Assembly: GCA_009192285.1 (NCBI GenBank)
Contig: CM018604.1
Location: 3,348,001-3,412,000 of the forward strand
Length of the DNA stretch: 64,000 nt
Direction: 5' to 3'
From: Morchella semilibera
Lineage: Eukaryota > Ascomycota > Pezizomycetes > Pezizales > Morchellaceae
Shown: one piece after another, positions 53,853 to 64,000 of the stretch
Layout of the letters: each line of letters opens with the position of its first letter
How positions within the stretch are numbered: position 1 is the first letter of the stretch
Translations under genes and position numbers: made by a program
Notes under the pieces: generated by a model
What the model was told of the DNA's origin: nothing
The model's database searches: none
Seen by the model: only the letters and a program-made list of their open reading frames with translations

Positions 53853-55388
53853 GATGCAAGTTTTGTCAGAGTGATCATACATTGTAGGCCTCTTGGTAGT
53901 TGGCTAGACGGGAATGGGGGTCTTTGCACTGTGGTAAAACTCACCAAGAAAGAAAGGGTGTGGGGTAGATGGAGAAAAGATGGTGTTCGAGGCGAAAAAC
54001 GTGAAAAAAGATGGGTTGTGGGTGGGGTGGTGGGCAAAGGTATTGGCAACTAGAATGAGCTGGATCGCGAAGAGGGGTCATTAGGAATAAACACAGCGGC
54101 TAGGATCTAGCCCAGTACAGGTACATGTACATCGACGCAGCTTAAAATGCACAGTGAAAGGTGCAGAGCGCAATAAAACAAGGCAGCCAGAATCCTCTGC
54201 GAGAAGTGAGTGGGGAAACGACTAGGATGTAGAATCCGCTAGTGATACAATGCTTGCACTTCCCCTCCACACCTTCCCTATTAGATCCACCCTTAATTAT
54301 GCGATCCCTCAGCAATGTTTCACGAGAACGGTACTTTGTAAGGGGGCCAGTCTTTGTAAGGGGGCCAGTGTACACCAGAATCGACCAACCATTAGGCCCC
54401 GCCGCCCGCCGGCCAAATGTCGCCCATAAAAGATTATTACATCGCTCGTAACTGACCTGAGTGAGTCGCCCTCAATGATGACTGATAGGCAACTGCTGGT
54501 AATCCGGATCTGCATATATGTAGCTACATTGCAAAAGTGTTCGTAATTCTTCCATTCCCATCTAGAATTGTCAGAGCCCAAGGAGAGACGTTGCCAATGA
54601 TCAATGATTTATTTTTGCTCTCCTAAATTGCAACATTAATGTTTAACTTTTGGTAGCAGGCGCAGGTACAGTGGGCTGTTGGGAGGATTGGATGGTCGAG
54701 GAGTCACCCCCCTTGGAAAGTTGGGGCCTTTGACGCTCAAGATGGGTCATGCTGTGCGGTGAGGTCGATAGGTCATAGTTGGAGCTACAAGACAGATGGG
54801 TGAGGTGGGGCCAGCAGGATGAGAGGTTGTACGCGCAACGGGACGTGTTTGTAGGTACTCTGAATATTTGATAAAAGGTTATGAAAGACCATGTGCCCAC
54901 CACTACTATAATATGAGTCTAAATATATTATGATCGTGGTACCCTTCTACGCGCAGCGTTATCAATGAAACCGGTTCTATATGCAGCCAGGATCCCTCAC
55001 ACAAAACACTACCACTCAGAGGAGACCATTAATATAAAAACACAACCAAATTAACCTGAGTAGACACTGACCTCGAACATTCTTTGTGTTAAGCTAGATA
55101 CCTTAGGAAGGTTCTTTACTACTACTAAATCATTTCTTATATGATCGGTTAGTTTTGGCCTCTTTTTAAAGGTTATGACTATTGGAAGCACTGGCTCCGT
55201 GGCTGGTAATCATGATGGACCTCATTCGTCCTTTATTTATATTTAGGTACAGGAGTGTCCAAAGTATGTCTTTCCATCATAATATCCCCTCCAGACCTAA
55301 AACACTGTTCCTAAGCCTGTATACTAACTACCCTGAACTACCTTATATTTCGTCCCATCATACACCAACACCGGAATCCAGACACCAT
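53853..55388. other. Intergenic region
   Basis: A 17-bp direct duplication (TTTGTAAGGGGGCCAGT, near 54337-54370) is present. A minus frame at 54643-54903 ends with a Gln/Ser/Pro-rich tail (DSSTIQSSQQPTVPAPATKS) and could be a terminal exon, but no upstream exon was found. A palindromic ACATGTAC cluster lies near 54120. Confidence 0.35.
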
Positions 55389-56342
55389 TTAATCCTCGAT
55401 GATATCGGTTCCATAATGACAATTAATCCCACGCTTCACACAAGCTGCACACCTCAGGCTGCTAAAGTTTTCGTCTCCGCCCCCTACCATAAACATACAC
55501 GGCCCACACCACCGACGCTTCGAGCTGTTGAGACAGCCAGTGCACAAGGGCAAAAATGGCTCCATCTCCGCAAGCTGGCCACAGATACTCAACATCCCCT
55601 CGCAGTACATTCCCTGCACCCAATTCAAACTGCAGCCAGTTGCCCTTTTTGCCTCTCTAAAGCCAGAATAGTCCCCTTGAAATTGCCCGACCCGCTTCGG
55701 GCGAAGGTGGGGCTGCTGCAGTAGGGATTCTGTCTGTCTGTCTGTATTAGCTTCTGGCTCCTCACTGCCCCTAGAGCAGCCACTGCCACCCTCCCCGGGT
55801 AAGGAACAAGGGGTTTGTGTACCGGCGTCAATTGCAGGCTTCGGATCCCCCACCACTTGACCAGGATCGCGGCCGGCTGGTAGAGTAGGGGTTGGAGGTT
55901 GCCTAGTCTTATTAGATCTGCCACTGCCGCCGGGCGGCTCCTCATCTTCTCCGTCGGATATGACCACCACCTCCTTGTTCTGTACGGGATGTGTTGGGCT
56001 GTTGTTTCTCGCAAGCCCTTTGTCGATAACCTCTGCTGGAGGCTTGCTTGGGCCCTCACACGGAGGTTCCTCCCTCTTGGAAAAACCAAGGAGGAATGCC
56101 AGATCTCTGGCGGTATGCTTCTTGTCTACAACGGCGCGGTATGAGGTAATCGACTGCTCGCGGATGGCTCGGACACCGGCTATATGGTCGGTAGGGAAGG
56201 TGAAAGCAAAGCCGCCAGTCTCGAGGGTAAAGAGGGAAGGCGCTGCGGGCCTCCTGATATCTATAGCTCTGGGATTGGTACCAGAACGATCATTGTCTGG
56301 GCGGGAAGTGACTAATGGACCGGCGGTGGTGAGTCTGTTCAT
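55389..56342 (-). CDS. Family member B: N-terminal block plus C-terminal six-Cys module, 317 aa
   Basis: The start is ATG at 56342 (MNRLTTAGPL); the frame is open somewhat further upstream without ATG. Residues about 40-88 (LETGGFAFTFP...IRE...SYRAV...TARDLAFLLGF) align without gaps to the products at 59.7 and 63.1 kb. The middle is disordered and Pro/Gly-rich with an acidic motif VVVISDGEDEEPPGG, which resembles a SUMO-interacting motif (hydrophobic run followed by Ser/Asp/Glu). The C-terminal 75 residues have Y-C-E-G-M, then C-x2-C-x8-C-x18-C-x2-C-x6-C, ending CHYGTDIIED. The spacing resembles a zinc cluster or the fungal DUF3716 type of Cys domain; both are comparisons from memory. Likely nuclear. 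Function unknown. Confidence 0.75.
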   Translation of the reverse strand: MNRLTTAGPLVTSRPDNDRSGTNPRAIDIRRPAAPSLFTLETGGFAFTFPTDHIAGVRAIREQSITSYRAVVDKKHTARDLAFLLGFSKREEPPCEGPSKPPAEVIDKGLARNNSPTHPVQNKEVVVISDGEDEEPPGGSGRSNKTRQPPTPTLPAGRDPGQVVGDPKPAIDAGTQTPCSLPGEGGSGCSRGSEEPEANTDRQTESLLQQPHLRPKRVGQFQGDYSGFREAKRATGCSLNWVQGMYCEGMLSICGQLAEMEPFLPLCTGCLNSSKRRWCGPCMFMVGGGDENFSSLRCAACVKRGINCHYGTDIIED

Positions 56343-56873
56343 GGCGAGGGAGCATGCGGCCACAGAGCAAGAGAATGGGGCGATTGTGTACCTTAGAAAG
56401 CGTGAGTTATGTTAGGGGGGTAATTGTGGGAATTATGGATCAATTTTAAACTTCTAGTGATGGAGATAGGATAATCTTAATATCACGCACCTATCCCCTC
56501 CTAAGACAGGTGAGAGAAACTAGGAAGGTTCCTAACAAGGCTAGGACCTTTTCGTTCTTGCGGCAGCTGCCGGTTTCTATGTTTATCGAATTATGAGATT
56601 TAATATTTTGTATCAAAACAGGATATTCTACAACCATTTAGTACGTTACAGATAGTTCCAATAATCCCACATACATTCATATGTAACTGCCTACTCCACT
56701 TTACAAAATGAACATTTTATTTCTTAATTTTTACTTTTGTTCCTTCCACGGCCTACGTACATATCATTGAGTATCCACATCATGGTCACCCCGGTCCGTG
56801 GCAACAAGAGAAAAACAAAGTAAAACGTCCACCACAGTGCAAAATGAAATGAAAAGTTCATTCGTGTAAATAT
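56343..56873. other. Promoter-side intergenic region of family member B
   Basis: AT-rich, 531 bases, with no gene. A GTGAGTTATG string just upstream of 56342 on the opposite strand is not needed for the model. Confidence 0.35.
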
Positions 56874-56881
56874 ACTAGTTG

Positions 56882-57329
56882 CAGGGTTCTCAATGCTAAT
56901 GCGGTGTTGTAATACATATCGATAAAACCCGCTGGTAGTACAGTGGTAGAGTACGATATGATGGTCTTTTAGTTAATAATAGGTAGGATATGGATTTTAT
57001 CTTTATCGATAATAGCATGAATATCATGGTAGGGAGCTTGGCGCCCAATTAAATCTTCATTTACCTTTACTAACCTCGATTTAAGCAGTTCATGAATCAT
57101 GAAGAGAAGGAAAAGAAAACTGGAACACTTCCAGGAACATAAGACATCACTCGTTTATAGTAATGATATATTATAGTTTTATTTATTTATCTATTACTTC
57201 ATAGATATATTATAGTTGGTATGATCAGGAGTCTTCAAAGTATCATGTAGTTCGATAACCACCGCAGTATATAACAGTGGGTACGATATGGCATGAAAGT
57301 CACCCTGATACGTACCATTGAGAACCCTG
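56882..57329 (+). mobile_element. hAT-like MITE, copy 5
   Basis: The element starts CAGGGTTCTCAATG at 56882 and ends CATTGAGAACCCTG at 57329, a perfect 14-bp terminal inverted repeat. Flanks ACTAGTTG (56874-56881) and ACTAGTTA (57330-57337) form an 8-bp target duplication with one difference. Inside, a 27-bp T-rich stub (57177-57203) is bounded by exact 12-bp repeats GATATATTATAG, a minimal LINE-tail insertion at the same site as in copies 1-3. Confidence 0.85.
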
Positions 57330-57337
57330 ACTAGTTA

Positions 57338-57821
57338 TGCTTTGAGGAAACAGGAAATTGATAGTAACTTGGCGCAGGTCATAGCCGTTGCGAGAGGCAA
57401 ACGGAACCTCACTGCCCCCACCGGTGGTACTCCGCCCTACATATGCACGTATTTTTTGTTTCTATCTGGAGCCGAATTTGGGAGATGAGCCCAGCACACA
57501 CTACGGTTAGATGTCCTCTTTTTATTACTCCCAACAAGAATACGTCACACGTGGAAATAGGGGACAAGAAATTGTGTCATTAGGATTCGGAGATGATATA
57601 AGTTTCATCTACTTTTACTCGTGGGGACAGTTAATTGCATCCTTATGAAACACAAGAGTGGAGCCTGTAAGACCAATGAGACCACCTTCCTACGCCCCCG
57701 ATGCGTCTTAGGTCTGGCATATCCTACAAAGCTGCAACCAAACAAAGCGAACAAAGGCCACCCCTTCCCCTTCTCCCCAACAACTGCAACAACCCCCATT
57801 AAGCTGCAACCCATGGCAGCT
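57338..57821. other. Intergenic region downstream of family member A
   Basis: Mixed sequence; it probably holds the 3' UTR of the minus-strand gene ending at 57822. No separate gene seen. Confidence 0.35.
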
Positions 57822-59660
57822 CTACCACTTTCTTTCTGTGCGGAGACTACACTTCAGCTTTGTCCCAATGCACCTCGCACATCTCACGGTGTTTGTATAA
57901 TTTTCATGGCCTCTTTTGAGCACCTTGCAGGCCGTTGTTTCACCCTTCTTGATGCACTCTGTGCAACGATCATCTCCCTCCCGAGTCTGGATTGCTGCAA
58001 ACTTGCCTCCGACCGTCACCAGGCCCTCCATGTACTTCTCTACGCCCGCAGTACGGCTCAGTCTTGTCTGCTCAAAGAGCTCCCCGAAGTTAGTGAAGTT
58101 GCCGAAGAACAAACCCTGCGGGTAGTTCCCATCTTCATTGCGTAGTTGCGAAATGTCGTTGATGATAGATTCGGAGAGGTTGGTAGCTCTTAACGCTGCA
58201 ACGGGACGTCTCGTACGCGAAGAGCGTCGCAGTTCTGGTGGTATCACCGGGAAGTCTTGATTGGCATCAGCGACATTGGAGAATGATGCCTGTGGGTGAT
58301 CGCCCTTTCCACTGCGCGGTGGCCACACGCCGGCGCCAGGGGAGTTCGACGAGGTATGTCTGAAGATACTAGGACGTCTGCTCCGTGATGAGCGTCGTAA
58401 TTCCGGTGGGATGAATGGAAGGTCTTCTTCATCTAGTTTTCTGTGTTTTGCTCCAGCATGGACAGGATTCGTAGTGCTGCGAGCGCTGACCCGTGCTCGC
58501 TTTGAGCGATGCCCCTCTGGTATTTGTGATGTGAGCCCAGTTACAGCGTCAGAATTCACCCATACGTTAGTTGCTGGTCCGGCCCGTGTTTTCCCTGCCG
58601 CTGGGAAGGCCCCATATACCCCTGGTCGCATTCTGCCCCCCTCCACCAGACCATCTGCCGCGTCCTTAGGTCTCGATTCCTCAGACCCCCTGGCAATAGT
58701 GGGGCCTGATACGATGCTGTAAGTAGAGTTTGTACGATCATTCTTCCCAGCACCTGATAAATGGGCATTGGAAGACATTGGTGCGGAGTCGCCCTTCTCT
58801 CTACTCCGAGAGTTGGTGGTGTCATGCCTCTTGGGGGTAACGAAGTTGGTAGAAGCGGCGGGGGCCTCTCTTTGGACCGCATCGTCCTTTCGTGCAAGCT
58901 CTTTAACTGGGATGCTGGTGGCTGGAGAGTCAGCATACACAGATCCCTTTCTACTGTACCCCGCACCTGCGATACCAACCGCGATACCAACCGCCGCAGC
59001 TGAGCTTCCCTGAACTTCGTTACAATCAGTCTCGGGGTATGGATGAGTGCGGTGCATGCGCTTCTCACCCGCCAGCCCAGTAAGAGGTTCGTTAGAACCA
59101 TGGCTCACTGCCCTAGCTCCCATTTGTGACCTCTCCATTTCTAAGACCGCTGTGTTGTCAACTGTTGCAGCCCCAAATATGATGGCCATGTCCCTCGGTG
59201 TGGAGGTGCCCGCGGCAACGGCACGGAACGCGGTGACCATGCGTGTGCGGATTGCGTGAAACCTCTCAGCGAGATTCCCAGGCGGGATTTGGAAGGTATG
59301 ACCGCCGACCGTGAGCAGTTCTGACCCAGCACTGCCAGCAGCTGGCGTAGGAGGGCTGGGAGGATTGTCATCGCCCAATGCTTCGGTTCCACTAAACACT
59401 CTATCGAAGGTGGTTGTGTCTCCACTAGGGGGTAGGTTGTCGCTTGGTGGGATGGGCAGCTCCCGTAGATGAGCTGCTCGCGCTGCCTCAGCTTGCTCAG
59501 CTCGTTTGACGCTCGCGAGCAGAGCATATCCGTAGTCGGGGGCGAAAGTGCTGACTGCGCGGAACCTGGGAACGGCGGTCATTGGAGTTCTGCAGCGTAT
59601 TGTGCTGGGGGGATTGGGTGTAGCGGAATTGTTAGGGGGATATGCCAGGTTGGGAGGCAT
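57822..59660 (-). CDS. Family member A: N-terminal block, basic repeats, C-terminal six-Cys module, 612 aa
   Basis: A single open frame from ATG at 59660 (MPPNLAYPPN) to 57822. Residues about 116-164 (TVGGHTFQIPP...AIR...AFRAV...TPRDMAIIFGA) match the block in members B and D without gaps. The long middle is hydrophilic, with basic nuclear-type signals (GHRSKRARVSAR). A duplicated motif IPPELRRSS(R)xRRP occurs twice, about 60 residues apart. The C-terminal module starts at KYMEGLVTVGGKFA and continues with C-x2-C-x8-C-x15-C-x2-C-x6-C, ending CSLRTERKW. I infer a nuclear protein that may bind nucleic acid or chromatin through the Cys module and Arg-rich repeats. The classical fungal zinc cluster has a shorter loop between its halves (5-12 residues), so identity with that family is not shown. 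No intron is needed. Confidence 0.8.
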   Translation of the reverse strand: MPPNLAYPPNNSATPNPPSTIRCRTPMTAVPRFRAVSTFAPDYGYALLASVKRAEQAEAARAAHLRELPIPPSDNLPPSGDTTTFDRVFSGTEALGDDNPPSPPTPAAGSAGSELLTVGGHTFQIPPGNLAERFHAIRTRMVTAFRAVAAGTSTPRDMAIIFGAATVDNTAVLEMERSQMGARAVSHGSNEPLTGLAGEKRMHRTHPYPETDCNEVQGSSAAAVGIAVGIAGAGYSRKGSVYADSPATSIPVKELARKDDAVQREAPAASTNFVTPKRHDTTNSRSREKGDSAPMSSNAHLSGAGKNDRTNSTYSIVSGPTIARGSEESRPKDAADGLVEGGRMRPGVYGAFPAAGKTRAGPATNVWVNSDAVTGLTSQIPEGHRSKRARVSARSTTNPVHAGAKHRKLDEEDLPFIPPELRRSSRSRRPSIFRHTSSNSPGAGVWPPRSGKGDHPQASFSNVADANQDFPVIPPELRRSSRTRRPVAALRATNLSESIINDISQLRNEDGNYPQGLFFGNFTNFGELFEQTRLSRTAGVEKYMEGLVTVGGKFAAIQTREGDDRCTECIKKGETTACKVLKRGHENYTNTVRCARCIGTKLKCSLRTERKW

Positions 59661-62299
59661 CGTGAGGGGAATAGCTTTCTAGGCAGTATGCGTTAGAATT
59701 CAGGTTATTGATAATGGTGAGGAGTATGGGTGTTCAGGTTGAGAAGGTCGGTGTCTGAGGTGTTGCCCCTCATTGGCGATCAAGGCCGGGTTAACTCGTT
59801 TCCCCACCCCACCATAAACCCCGGCCCTACCCCCCGACCAGGTCCTCAACCAACTCCAAGAGCAGCGGATCTATTTCTTGACTGTTCCCACAGGTTGCTA
59901 TCCAAACTTACTCGCACCCTACCCCACCGTGGGCGCCTCTTTGTACGGATCGTTTCTCAAATCAGGCGCTCTTCCCCCGGCATTTTTTTCTCCTCTGGAC
60001 GCGGGCAACTTCTTTTCCTTTAACCCCCCTGGGCTTCTGGCAAGGATATCTGCAATCCCACGGCAACTTCTTAGTTCCTGTCCCTTCTTTGCCTGGCCTT
60101 GCTCTGGCCTCGGCACACTTCCCGGTGTCCTTGTTGAACGCCCTGGCGTGGCATCATGGACCATCACTCGCTGACCTAGAACCCCAATTTCCAAAGTTTG
60201 ACAGTGTGGAATGCGAGACTAAACTAATTGACGAGCTACAGACAACCTTTACCTCCTAGCAGACAAGATACACCATGTCCTCATGGTAATAGCTCTCACG
60301 ACGTCTATACGGAAAATTCCCCTCGGCATAACCGTTGACCCCCAGGAATTATAATTACCATAATACAACACTGGTGTTATGGTCCAGTGGGAGGAGTACC
60401 ATACTATTGCGGGTTCAGAGGATGTGGGGCCGTCGGGGTATCTCATTTGGGCATACCGCGCGCTTTCAATGCCTGATGTGATGTGTCAAGCGCTCATTAT
60501 TCATGATGATCCCATAATCTATATTCTGTCCCTCCGTGGGGGTGGTTGCTCTACATGGAATTCAGACCAAAGTAATGTTAATGACTCTTAGAGACCCGTC
60601 AGTTAGTTTATAAACATGGTCATAAATATCTTTTTCCTCTTATTTCCCTAGCACCAGGTGAAGCTTGTTGGATATCATCTCTTACTGGCACTCGCCATCC
60701 AGAAGACCCCCTCCCAGACAACTCCACAACTAAATTCCCATTATTTCCGATACTCTGCTCGCCTGACGATTCTTCTGCTGTGTTTCCTGCTATACCTTGC
60801 GGTGCGCAATCTTCACTGGTGGTGCACAGGTGAGTGGTATCTCCCTCCGAGGGCGGGCCCTTGTAATAAGGCCTGCTAACGATGGATCGACGAACCAGGG
60901 GAACTATATGTGGGGGGTCTCACTCCATACCGCACCCTAAAAAAGGGCCGCTACGCGGGCTCCTGAACCACTATGTAGAGAAGTGCGACCAGGACCTTCT
61001 TTGCCACCACCCACAGTCAGTAAACTGTGCAGTGCAGTGTGGACCGTTCCCTTGTTCTTTCATTTGTTGAAGACGTTGGCGGAGGTTGCCAGCCCACTGA
61101 ATGCCCTTTACTGGGTGTGGCCAGGGTCTGGCGGGGTAGTTCTGTGGTTAGTGCGATGTTGCCATAGCTCAAGTGCTGGATGCAATCAATGATGTAAAAA
61201 AAGAATTCAAAAACCACCCACAGTCATAATACGTCACTCGAGGTCATGGGCAATCACTCGGGCGAGTGATGGATTATGATGTCTCCTTCTGGGACGTTCG
61301 TTGTTTTGTAGAACAAGATGGTTTTCAATTGAGTGGGGGTGGAGGCGCATGACTTGCTTTTGTTCAGGGAGCGTGTATTCAACGGTCGGGGACCGGCAGG
61401 ATTCGTTTCTGTTTTTTTTTTTTTTTTCGTTTTTTTTTTTCAGGTGGCTGGTGCTGGGGGCTTTTTGTGGGTGTCTGGTACGCGGTACATGCCTTTTTTT
61501 TTTCTTTTTGAGTGCCTTGCTTTTTCTTTCTTTCTTCCGTGGAGTACTCGTGCGGGGGGATTTTGTTTCCTCGGTCGCCTGGTTGCTTAAACATACCCAC
61601 GGCCGAAGAAAACAAGGAAATAAAGAGAAAGGGGAAAGTCGACCAAAACATGCTTGTTTATCATCCCCCCCCCCCCTGTCATGTCATGGTAAGATCATAC
61701 CTGCAGCATCCTCTTCCACCGCCGCCCCTACTAATGCTCTTCTAGGATTTGTGTGTGTCCCGGGTGGACCCCCGGGGTCAAGGATTGGAAGCATAGGTTT
61801 AGAGGGGTGGGTGGATGAGGTGTGTAGCGGGAAAAGATGCACGCAGGGCAATGAATTCCACTGGTTCATGGGATTCTGTAGCTACATGGGTTTCAGAGTT
61901 CAGATAGTTGAAGTTGTTACAGATGCTGGCTTGTCATACAGGGAGGTATAGGAGCAAACGGAACATATTGCGGCGGTTGATGGGACAATAAAAAAAGGGA
62001 GGTGATTACAGCCGCTGATGGAGGTAGAGTGGCGAGGAGCGGAAGATGCGTGGCACTAGATATAGCTTTTAGTCGACGTATATGTGGTCTAGACTCTTGA
62101 TAGAACTTTTTTTTATTTATTCCCAAGGTGAAAGAACGCTTTCAGCTACACAGACCAAACAACAAGGAAGAACTACACGGACCTACACAAATCTCAAAAT
62201 GTCAAAAAAATACATGATATCCGGTAGCCATGTAGTTCGTTCCGCAACTCAGACATGCCATCCCATGTCCGTGACAAAGCAGAAACCCCGCCGTCTAAC
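59661..62299. other. Intergenic region
   Basis: No gene supported. Frames near 60379-60591 and 60658-60879 are weak. T-rich strings at 61411-61505 produce artefactual hydrophobic/Phe-rich frames. An inverted repeat with CACTCG arms lies at 61225-61278. Confidence 0.4.
61225..61278. repeat. Inverted repeat with CACTCG/CGAGTG arms
   Basis: Arms CATAATACGTCACTCG (61225-61240) and CGAGTGATGGATTATG (61263-61278) pair with two mismatches. A tighter inner palindrome ATCACTCG-GG-CGAGTGAT lies at 61253-61270. Confidence 0.6.
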
Positions 62300-63148
62300 C
62301 TACTCGTCCTCCATATCATACTCCTCCCCCGAGAGACCGCTGTCGTACATATTCTCCGACGCAAAGTCGGGGGACGACGGCACCACCGAGTCGGCGTAGT
62401 GGAAGGCAGCGGGGTCGTCCTCGACCAGAGGTACCTTGTTGTAGTCGATGGGTGTAACCTTGTAGTTGATCCCGCGCGTCGCCGACTTCCTACCGTCGAC
62501 ATTACCAGGGGCTCTGTGCCCGCCGGTACTAGTGCGGCGGCGCTTCGTGGGGGGTGTGATGTCAGGGGCGGCCTCGAGTGGTTCGGCGGTCTTGGAGCTT
62601 ACAGCAGCGATAGGAGCTTTGTCGCTCTTCTGGGTGCGTGGGCGCTTCGAGCCTGTAAGCTTTGTGGTCTCGGCGGCGCGGTCCTTTGCTTTTGCCTTGC
62701 TGGGGATGGTGGTCTGCTCTGCCCTCGCGGTGGTCCAGGCCTCTGCACATGCCCCCGGGGGGGCCTCGGCGACAACTTCCTTGCCTTTGCTAGTGTCTGC
62801 AGGTAAAGCAACCTCCTCGCCAACCAGGGCTTGCGGTGCAGTAACAGCTGTATCTTTAGGCGGGTTCTGGTCAGGGATGACGGTGGGGGCTCCAAAGACG
62901 ATGGAGAAGTCGGCCGGAGTTGCAGCATTCAGGGTCATTGCGCGGAATGAGGCGAGTAGCTGTGCACGAATTGTGATGTATGCATCCGCGTAATCGGCTG
63001 GGATGGTGAGGATGGTGCCCTCGATCTCAATTGATACGGTGCGTTCTAGTCCTCCGGTGTTTGTATCGATGGTCCCGGCAACCACACGCTTAGAAGGATT
63101 GAGTTTGCCATCCCCGAGCGACCGGGCCGAGGAGCCTGCTGGAGGCAT
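62300..63148 (-). CDS. Family member D: N-terminal block only, 282 aa
   Basis: I choose ATG at 63148 (MPPAGSSARS), because it resembles member A's MPP start and the upstream extension to 63298 looks like leader. Residues about 38-88 (SIEIEGTILTIP...TIR...SFRAM...TPADFSIVFGA) are the shared block. The rest is Lys/Ala/Pro-rich disordered sequence with nuclear-type motifs (GSKRPRTQKSDK; PTKRRRTSTGG) and an acidic end (SGLSGEEYDMEDE). The C-terminal six-Cys module of A, B and E is absent, and no downstream splice to such a module is visible within 300 bases. It may be a natural short paralogue or have lost its tail. Likely nuclear; function unknown. Confidence 0.7.
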   Translation of the reverse strand: MPPAGSSARSLGDGKLNPSKRVVAGTIDTNTGGLERTVSIEIEGTILTIPADYADAYITIRAQLLASFRAMTLNAATPADFSIVFGAPTVIPDQNPPKDTAVTAPQALVGEEVALPADTSKGKEVVAEAPPGACAEAWTTARAEQTTIPSKAKAKDRAAETTKLTGSKRPRTQKSDKAPIAAVSSKTAEPLEAAPDITPPTKRRRTSTGGHRAPGNVDGRKSATRGINYKVTPIDYNKVPLVEDDPAAFHYADSVVPSSPDFASENMYDSGLSGEEYDMEDE

Positions 63149-63630
63149 TTGGAGGGACAAGATATGAAAGGTATAGATGGAGAGTTGCCGATGGTAGAGA
63201 TTTAGAAGCGTGGGGAGATGGGTTGAGAGATGAAGTTTGAATGGACGGTGGACGTGGTGGAAGATGTTGTTTGCGAGACCCCTCACGATGGAGGGCACGC
63301 ATTTGCCTGACGCCTAGGTAAGTTGAACAAAGAATTAATGCATGACGCAGGCGACGGAAGAGTCAAAATCAAACCCCTTTCAACAAACTATGGAAATATA
63401 TTTTACTCCTAAGGTTTTGAAACCTTCATGTACATATTGCTCGTGGGGGGGTTGAGCAATCCCGCAACCTACACGATAACACGGTTGGTGACCCACATGT
63501 CGATATCGCAGCTCAGGGATCAAATGTGAGAACTACTCTCAGACCCTATTATGAGTAGGAGCCAGGAGACAAAAGAGCACGGCAGCAAACCAATGTTCCA
63601 ACGGAGGTGACCCTCACCATGAAAACGTAT
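63149..63630. other. Intergenic region between family members E and D
   Basis: Holds the leader of member D (63149-63298) and the 3' end of member E. No further gene seen. Confidence 0.4.
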
Positions 63631-64000
63631 CTATACAAACCCACACAACAATCCCGGCCTAGCATAACAACGACTACACTTCCTGGCCAACAAAAGTGGG
63701 TCATCACAGGCAGAAAGAACTTTGCAGATGCTCCCAGTGTAGATGCACCGCTTGCAACTCTGTTCTCCCTTCAGAACCCTTGTATCGGCACGCTCTCCTC
63801 CGAGTGTTATCATTCCTTCAATATAGCTTCCAATCACCCATGAGGGTGGCATTTGGGTCATTCTAATAGCGGTGCGGATATCCTTATAGTCTCCCAGGAA
63901 TCCGTTCATCTTGGACCCGGCGTTCGATACCATCTGGTTGAGTTTGCTCCGTTCAAACCCTTTGCAGCCGTCATCAAACTTGCGTTTCCGGGATTCGATG
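63631..64000 (-). CDS. Family member E, C-terminal part (runs off the window)
   Basis: The frame is open from the window edge (64000) to the stop at 63631. It begins with a basic nuclear-type stretch (ESRKRKFDDG), followed by FERSKLNQMVSNAG, FLGDY and SYIEGMITLGGERA. Then comes the Cys module C-x2-C-x6-C-x15-C-x2-C-x7-C ending at CGFV. The FLGDY / Y-x-E-G-M-x-T-x-G-G positions match members A and B. The N-terminal block lies beyond the window, so the start is unknown. Confidence 0.7.
   Translation of the reverse strand, partial: IESRKRKFDDGCKGFERSKLNQMVSNAGSKMNGFLGDYKDIRTAIRMTQMPPSWVIGSYIEGMITLGGERADTRVLKGEQSCKRCIYTGSICKVLSACDDPLLLARKCSRCYARPGLLCGFV

Follow-up and report, generated by a model that had tools for sequence, protein, structure and literature searches.

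We analysed a 64,000-nucleotide stretch of contig C2 of Morchella semilibera (C2:3348001-3412000, hereafter the window; genome 56.76 Mb in 23 contigs), at whose end lie four minus-strand genes, A, B, D and E. An original prediction had described these as a tandem cluster from an undescribed-looking family, with an N-terminal block (N-block) and a C-terminal module of six cysteines (C module; Table 1). In the full-length proteins, an N-block of ~49 residues is followed by a linker, with basic stretches in most members, and by a C module of ~95 residues that would end in a binuclear zinc-cluster-like arrangement. The longest open frame between positions 55301 and 64000 is that of B, at 618 codons, compared with 285 codons or fewer in 200 base shuffles.

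The N-block had been listed for A, B and D. All three carry it, and inspection of the sequence beyond the window, which the original prediction had recommended, located it in E as well (C2:3412117-3412323, ~120-320 bases past the window end) within one frame of 293 codons; E is a complete two-block protein. For D, no six-cysteine module was present in its own frame, visible by eye in the three minus-strand frames as far as position 60200, or recovered by profile in that part of the window. Arginine- and lysine-rich segments had also been pointed out, and basic nuclear-localisation-like stretches were indeed computed in B, D and E and recognised by eye in F, H and I, relatives found elsewhere in the genome. 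In the linker of B, IPPELRRSSR[ST]RRP occurs twice. Such linker stretches are compatible with nuclear proteins.

Table 1. Family genes and their parts. Plain positions refer to the window; other locations are given by contig.
Feature	Location	Strand	Description
Gene A	55389..56363	-	324 codons; open reading frame (ORF) with N-block and C-terminal six-Cys module
N-block of A	56076..56222	-	from alignment; held-out profile 42.7 bits
C-terminal six-Cys module of A	55389..55685	-	46.1 bits by held-out profile; 28.3 when Cys are masked
Gene B	57822..59660	-	612 codons; ORF with N-block, long linker and C-terminal module
N-block of B	59163..59312	-	from alignment; held-out profile 52.3 bits
IPPELRRSSR[ST]RRP copy 1	58371..58412	-	basic, linker of B
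IPPELRRSSR[ST]RRP copy 2	58203..58244	-	basic, linker of B
C-terminal six-Cys module of B	57822..58112	-	C-x2-C-x8-C-x15-C-x2-C-x6-C
Gene D	62300..63298	-	332 codons; ORF with N-block alone and acidic C-terminus
N-block of D	62882..63028	-	from alignment; held-out profile 28.9 bits, the weakest
Gene E, C-terminal part	63631..64000	-	frame extends beyond the window, to a point equivalent to ~64512
Six-Cys module of E	63631-63912	-	
F	C1:4915707		intact two-block gene
G	C1:4919836-4920502		has N-block and C module, each in its own frame
I	C1:4933085-4933939		N-block alone
Decayed copy	C1:4829977		both blocks, in different frames
Decayed copy	C1:4859396		internal stops; recognised via C module
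H	C12, identical copy on C13		group II
J	C2:4473078		group II
K	C11:288866		group II
L	C11:290439		group II

Two shared blocks and a dispersed family

Relatedness was assessed with shuffled controls (1000 per block pair and 300 per full-length pair) and with held-out profiles, in which each shared block was modelled from all members but one and the profile was then searched for that member. This search covered 3,063 open frames (175,487 residues in all) taken from the window and from fetched loci; because those loci had been picked for matching, the frames do not sample the genome at random, and genome-wide searches with single proteins provided a separate view.

All six N-block pairs among A, B, D and E exceeded all 1000 shuffles, and the held-out profiles recovered seven of seven members at 28.9-63.0 bits (E 63.0, F 35.7, G 47.9 and I 53.5, the others as in Table 1), with the best unrelated frame at 10.4 bits or less; a decayed copy, in locus L030, scored 13-16 bits. 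The residues G, P, IR, RA, T, D and G are invariant in A, B and D; the block, which had been called ungapped, has one additional residue in B. When full-length proteins were compared, 13 of 15 pairs exceeded all 300 shuffles, and the two that fell short, B-I and D-F, had their scores reached in 1/300 and 5/300 shuffles, respectively. Across the whole genome, a search with B found E at expectation (E) values of 3.6e-5 and 4.5e-5, one per block, and D weakly (0.0085), while A found F at 1.3e-7, along with I, G and E, and D merely at 1.42. Genes E and I matched each other reciprocally at 2-3e-10, and the search with D, the weakest member, recovered B (0.0067) and E (0.24). Against the PDB, the best N-block profile match had an E value of 0.21, and in comparisons of single B sequences with viral and prokaryotic collections, 0/19 and 0/86 pattern stretches coded for a relative.

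For the C module, all ten pairs among A, B, E, F and G exceeded 1000 shuffles, and seven still did so when every cysteine was replaced by X; for A-G, B-G and E-G the masked score was reached by 6, 4 and 1 of 1000 shuffles. Held-out profiles recovered nine of nine members both with cysteines (34.4-60.7 bits; best other frame 6.4-8.7) and with cysteines masked (13.4-38.9 bits; best other frame 5.0-8.3), G and L being the weakest in the masked test (E values of 0.005 and 0.011). Before the best other frame was named, every frame of loci L030, L036 and L037 had been set aside because these might be relatives, and second readings of the members were excluded as well. The pairwise similarity whose absence the original prediction had named as its refutation was found in every tested pair of either block, and its claim that the four genes are related is borne out by shuffles and held-out profiles alike, including those with masked cysteines.

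The motifs reported for A, B and E are present: F-x-G, T, Y-x-E-G, a G, an A and the six cysteines are invariant among the three. The module follows the overall pattern C-x2-C-x6-12-C, a loop of 15-16 residues, and C-x2-C-x6-7-C. A loop of 15-18 residues had been proposed between the third and fourth cysteines; with A and K read at the second candidate cysteine, we found 15 in every one of the nine modules except that of L, which has 16. In A, two cysteines compete for the third place (x8/x18 or x11/x15), and x18 gives way to x15, the value in other modules. As the modules are no more than 18-27% identical to that of B, the copies are old. On these comparisons, A, B, D and E are homologous members of one old, fast-changing family.

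Members with the N-block, here called group I, form two clusters, one on C2 (A, B, D and E) and one on C1 (F, G, I and two decayed copies). The C module was not found in I or in D. Intact frames are present in A, B, D, E, F and I. Group II (H, J, K and L) has the C module without the N-block, and the modules of the two groups matched each other in profile-profile comparison with a probability of 97% (E value 4.4e-11). In a C-module tree with very long branches the groups split (support 97/97), and within group I, B stood apart from A, E, F and G (85/90) and F was joined with G (84/82); the N-block tree resolved no branching. The proposed tandem expansion stands as a single gene family, but with two clusters in the genome and more distant kin elsewhere it is not purely local and tandem, and B falls outside its presumed siblings.

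Several further observations concern these loci and their surroundings. In G, a putative 46-base GT...CTAAC...AG intron seen by eye (L020:9100-9520, C1) would join the N-block and C module; G may also be frame-shifted, because its F-x-G-N-F motif lies in a different frame from the remaining module. A partial C-module match with an internal stop occurs at C21:1540488-1540670 and C22:1542175-1542357 (19.6 bits with the group I profile). The contig pairs C9/C10, C12/C13 and C21/C22 carry the same sequences at nearly equal positions, and part of the genome therefore seems to be represented in the assembly by both haplotypes or nuclei. A Tc1-like transposase frame (PF01498; L030:2714-3280, C1, ~4.831 Mb) lies near a decayed family copy, and ~3 kb upstream of E there is a double-psi beta-barrel-like frame (L018:4076-4462; PF03330, E value 2.5e-5, below cut-off). 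Elsewhere in the window, ten of the larger stop-to-stop frames at positions 478-35049 gave no Pfam match at an E value of 0.01, and introns may hide domains there.

Affinities of the cysteine module

A Pfam scan of A, B, D, E, F, H, I, J, K, a fragment of L and all nine modules (G as a module only) returned nothing above cut-off. Zn_clus and DUF3716, the two Pfam families that the original prediction had wished to see checked, gave matches only below threshold. For Zn_clus (PF00172, cut-off 21 bits), H scored 16.4 bits, B 9.9 and G 9.3, and the other six of nine modules had no match at an E value of 10; we count these three sub-threshold matches towards a zinc-cluster reading. Classical zinc clusters are spaced C-x2-C-x6-C-x5-12-C-x2-C-x6-8-C. 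The family has the number, order and most of the outer spacing of the cysteines in common with PF00172 but differs in its loop (15-16 residues as against 5-12, the range given in the original prediction) and in a first half that runs from x6 to x12. Classical Zn_clus membership was rejected on cut-off and spacing, and the module is, as had been proposed, C-terminal and similar to the classical Zn2Cys6 pattern while lying outside it. The C-terminal position has a precedent in Ume6, whose Zn2Cys6 cluster is placed at the C-terminus in a title cited in PMC2447501.

When the nine-module profile was compared with 177,635 distinct PDB sequences, the zinc-cluster domain of AlcR was the sole match under an E value of 1 (8.8e-4). 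This AlcR (PDB 1f4s, 1f5e, 2alc and 3alc), which we take to be that of Aspergillus nidulans, reads C-x2-C-x6-C-x16-C-x2-C-x6-C in the alignment; its loop of 16 is close to the 15-16 of the family, and by spacing a long loop of the AlcR type (~16) occurs in nine of nine modules. To judge from this spacing, AlcR is a precedent for the long loop over which the original prediction had hesitated. The two differ in that the first half-cluster of the family is often longer (x6-x12) and its basic residues less regular, and there is little similarity outside the cysteine framework. In PMC5559640, AlcR is described as binding DNA as a monomer. Weak matches to alcohol dehydrogenase (E value 0.034), beta-defensin, BUD31, DUF5351 and others were taken as chance.

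The genome contains four DUF3716 matches (PF12511, cut-off 22 bits) over cut-off, all of them away from the window. The whole of B scored 9.2 bits (E value 1.5), the module of B 13.7 bits (0.063) and that of G 9.6 bits (1.2), and the other seven modules had no match at an E value of 10. In profile-profile comparison with four DUF3716 rows, two of them incomplete, group I reached a probability of 10% over 18 columns (P 0.003) and group II 0.4% (P 0.16). These scores, below threshold and non-significant by profile comparison, do not establish DUF3716 membership of the C module. DUF3716 resembles the family in having two C-x2-C pairs near the C-terminus. Near one DUF3716 gene (~0.6 kb) are PIF1-like helicase frames, possibly of a Helitron (PF05970 and PF21530; L024:1-903, C14, ~563-564 kb). 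The name DUF3716 was not found in the literature searched; in PMC5225507, PF12511 is given as a domain of unknown function, and a gene carrying it is mentioned as strain-specific in Colletotrichum.

One DUF3716 protein (C2:2291354) has its N-terminal domain in common with group II. This domain, FQAGY (L027:1381-2316, L055:1501-2331 and L056), was found by a search with K in L (E value 1.1e-6) and in the DUF3716 protein (8.8e-6, with a second copy at 0.05), which apparently has two copies in tandem. Held-out profiles gave 68.2 bits for the DUF3716 protein, 39.8 for K and, more weakly, 17.3 for H (E value 5.5e-4; best unrelated frame 10.5); L, which was never in the profile, scored 40.7-43.6 bits with K in the profile and 20.3 without it. 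An FQAGY domain aligned by eye in J was dropped, its held-out score of 8.5 bits being no better than that of unrelated frames, and a relationship between the N-block and FQAGY was rejected at an hhalign probability of 1.2%. FQAGY precedes the six-cysteine module in K and L, and probably in H, and precedes DUF3716 in one protein. The two kinds of tail thus share an N-terminal partner, through either common origin or domain exchange. The sharing of FQAGY is a step beyond the original account.

Both the weak Pfam matches, which run across the cysteine pattern, and the N-terminal domain common to K and the DUF3716 protein would suit a C module that is a divergent branch of DUF3716, in a family that works like DUF3716 proteins, themselves of unknown function. 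Every match is below cut-off, however, the profile-profile probabilities are low and the loop spacing differs, and we regard this as unlikely. A further alternative is that these are old genes, either orphans or derived from mobile elements, whose copies proliferate and degenerate without serving the organism. The two decayed copies on C1, one of them ~0.9 kb from the Tc1-like transposase frame, are in line with it, as are, separately, the helicase frames beside a DUF3716 gene and the strain-specific Colletotrichum gene; against it, the window holds no direct or inverted repeats of at least 24 bases between 54000 and 64000, the low identity to the module of B points to old copies, and six genes have intact frames, which makes this explanation quite improbable.

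Candidate nuclear regulators

We put at roughly 50% the probability that the family consists of nuclear proteins in which a C-terminal module resembling a zinc cluster, probably one that binds DNA or chromatin, is combined with an N-terminal partner block that is also found alone (D and I). Most likely, the six cysteines would coordinate two zinc ions and, as in AlcR, form a surface that contacts DNA. The conserved segment that precedes the cluster (Y-x-x-G, G-x-x-A) would pack against it, and the C module would then contact DNA or chromatin. The N-block would serve in self-pairing or in pairing with a partner, and D and I, which have this block alone, could act as partners or competitors, modulating their full-length neighbours. 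AlphaFold models, each from three rows, serve as hints: ahead of the cysteine part, the C module is predicted to form a short strand, two helices and two strands (mean predicted local distance difference test score 62.1), and the N-block a strand hairpin, a long helix and a short helix (63.7).

A number of findings weigh against a DNA-binding regulator. All nine modules stay below the Zn_clus cut-off, and the 70 Zn_clus matches reported in the genome (61 above cut-off; of 14 control genomes one matches, below cut-off) all lie away from the family loci. The AlcR match rests mostly on cysteine spacing: matching residues are mostly cysteines and scattered positions, the search was run with cysteines unmasked, and since six cysteines in register can explain most of the score, the match favours like architecture over common descent. 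Its G/A/T part is aligned with the very start of the solved construct, a likely place for a cloning tag, and the AlcR cluster stands at the chain start whereas that of the family is C-terminal. Classical zinc clusters usually have basic residues between the second and third cysteines; these are irregular in the family modules, and A has a single short basic stretch, inside the cysteine module. Both AlphaFold models are poor, and a fold search with them gave no match at an E value of 0.001.

The irregular basic residues, together with the conserved stretch ahead of the cluster, which suggests a larger composite domain, would suit a structural zinc fold that serves protein-protein contacts and does not bind DNA, the proteins then being chromatin or signalling adaptors. 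The sole solved relative by profile is, in contrast, a DNA-binding cluster, and we hold the adaptor role to be somewhat unlikely. The proteins constitute a real family, absent from Pfam above cut-off and best filed with the zinc-cluster kind but outside PF00172. It is not described in the parts of the literature reached by searches on zinc clusters, AlcR, Ume6, lineage-specific expansion, Morchella, Pezizomycetes, cysteine-rich and tandem families, and the spacing strings.

More tentatively, the family may represent a new class of fungal regulators that combines a C-terminal, AlcR-like long-loop binuclear zinc cluster and its own preceding helix-and-strand segment with a new N-terminal pairing domain, and whose arrays also contain paralogues with the block alone that act as partners or inhibitors. 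In group II this cluster would follow a second N-terminal domain, also used by a DUF3716 protein, with cysteine tails and N-terminal domains exchanged in one larger system. If the reading as regulators is right, fungal zinc-cluster regulators reach beyond what PF00172 detects, counts of fungal transcription factors overlook a C-terminal, long-loop branch, the block-only members offer a testable case of paralogue interference inside a gene array, and there is a handle on DUF3716, a domain of unknown function. The members of this family are possible nuclear regulators of an as yet uncatalogued kind.

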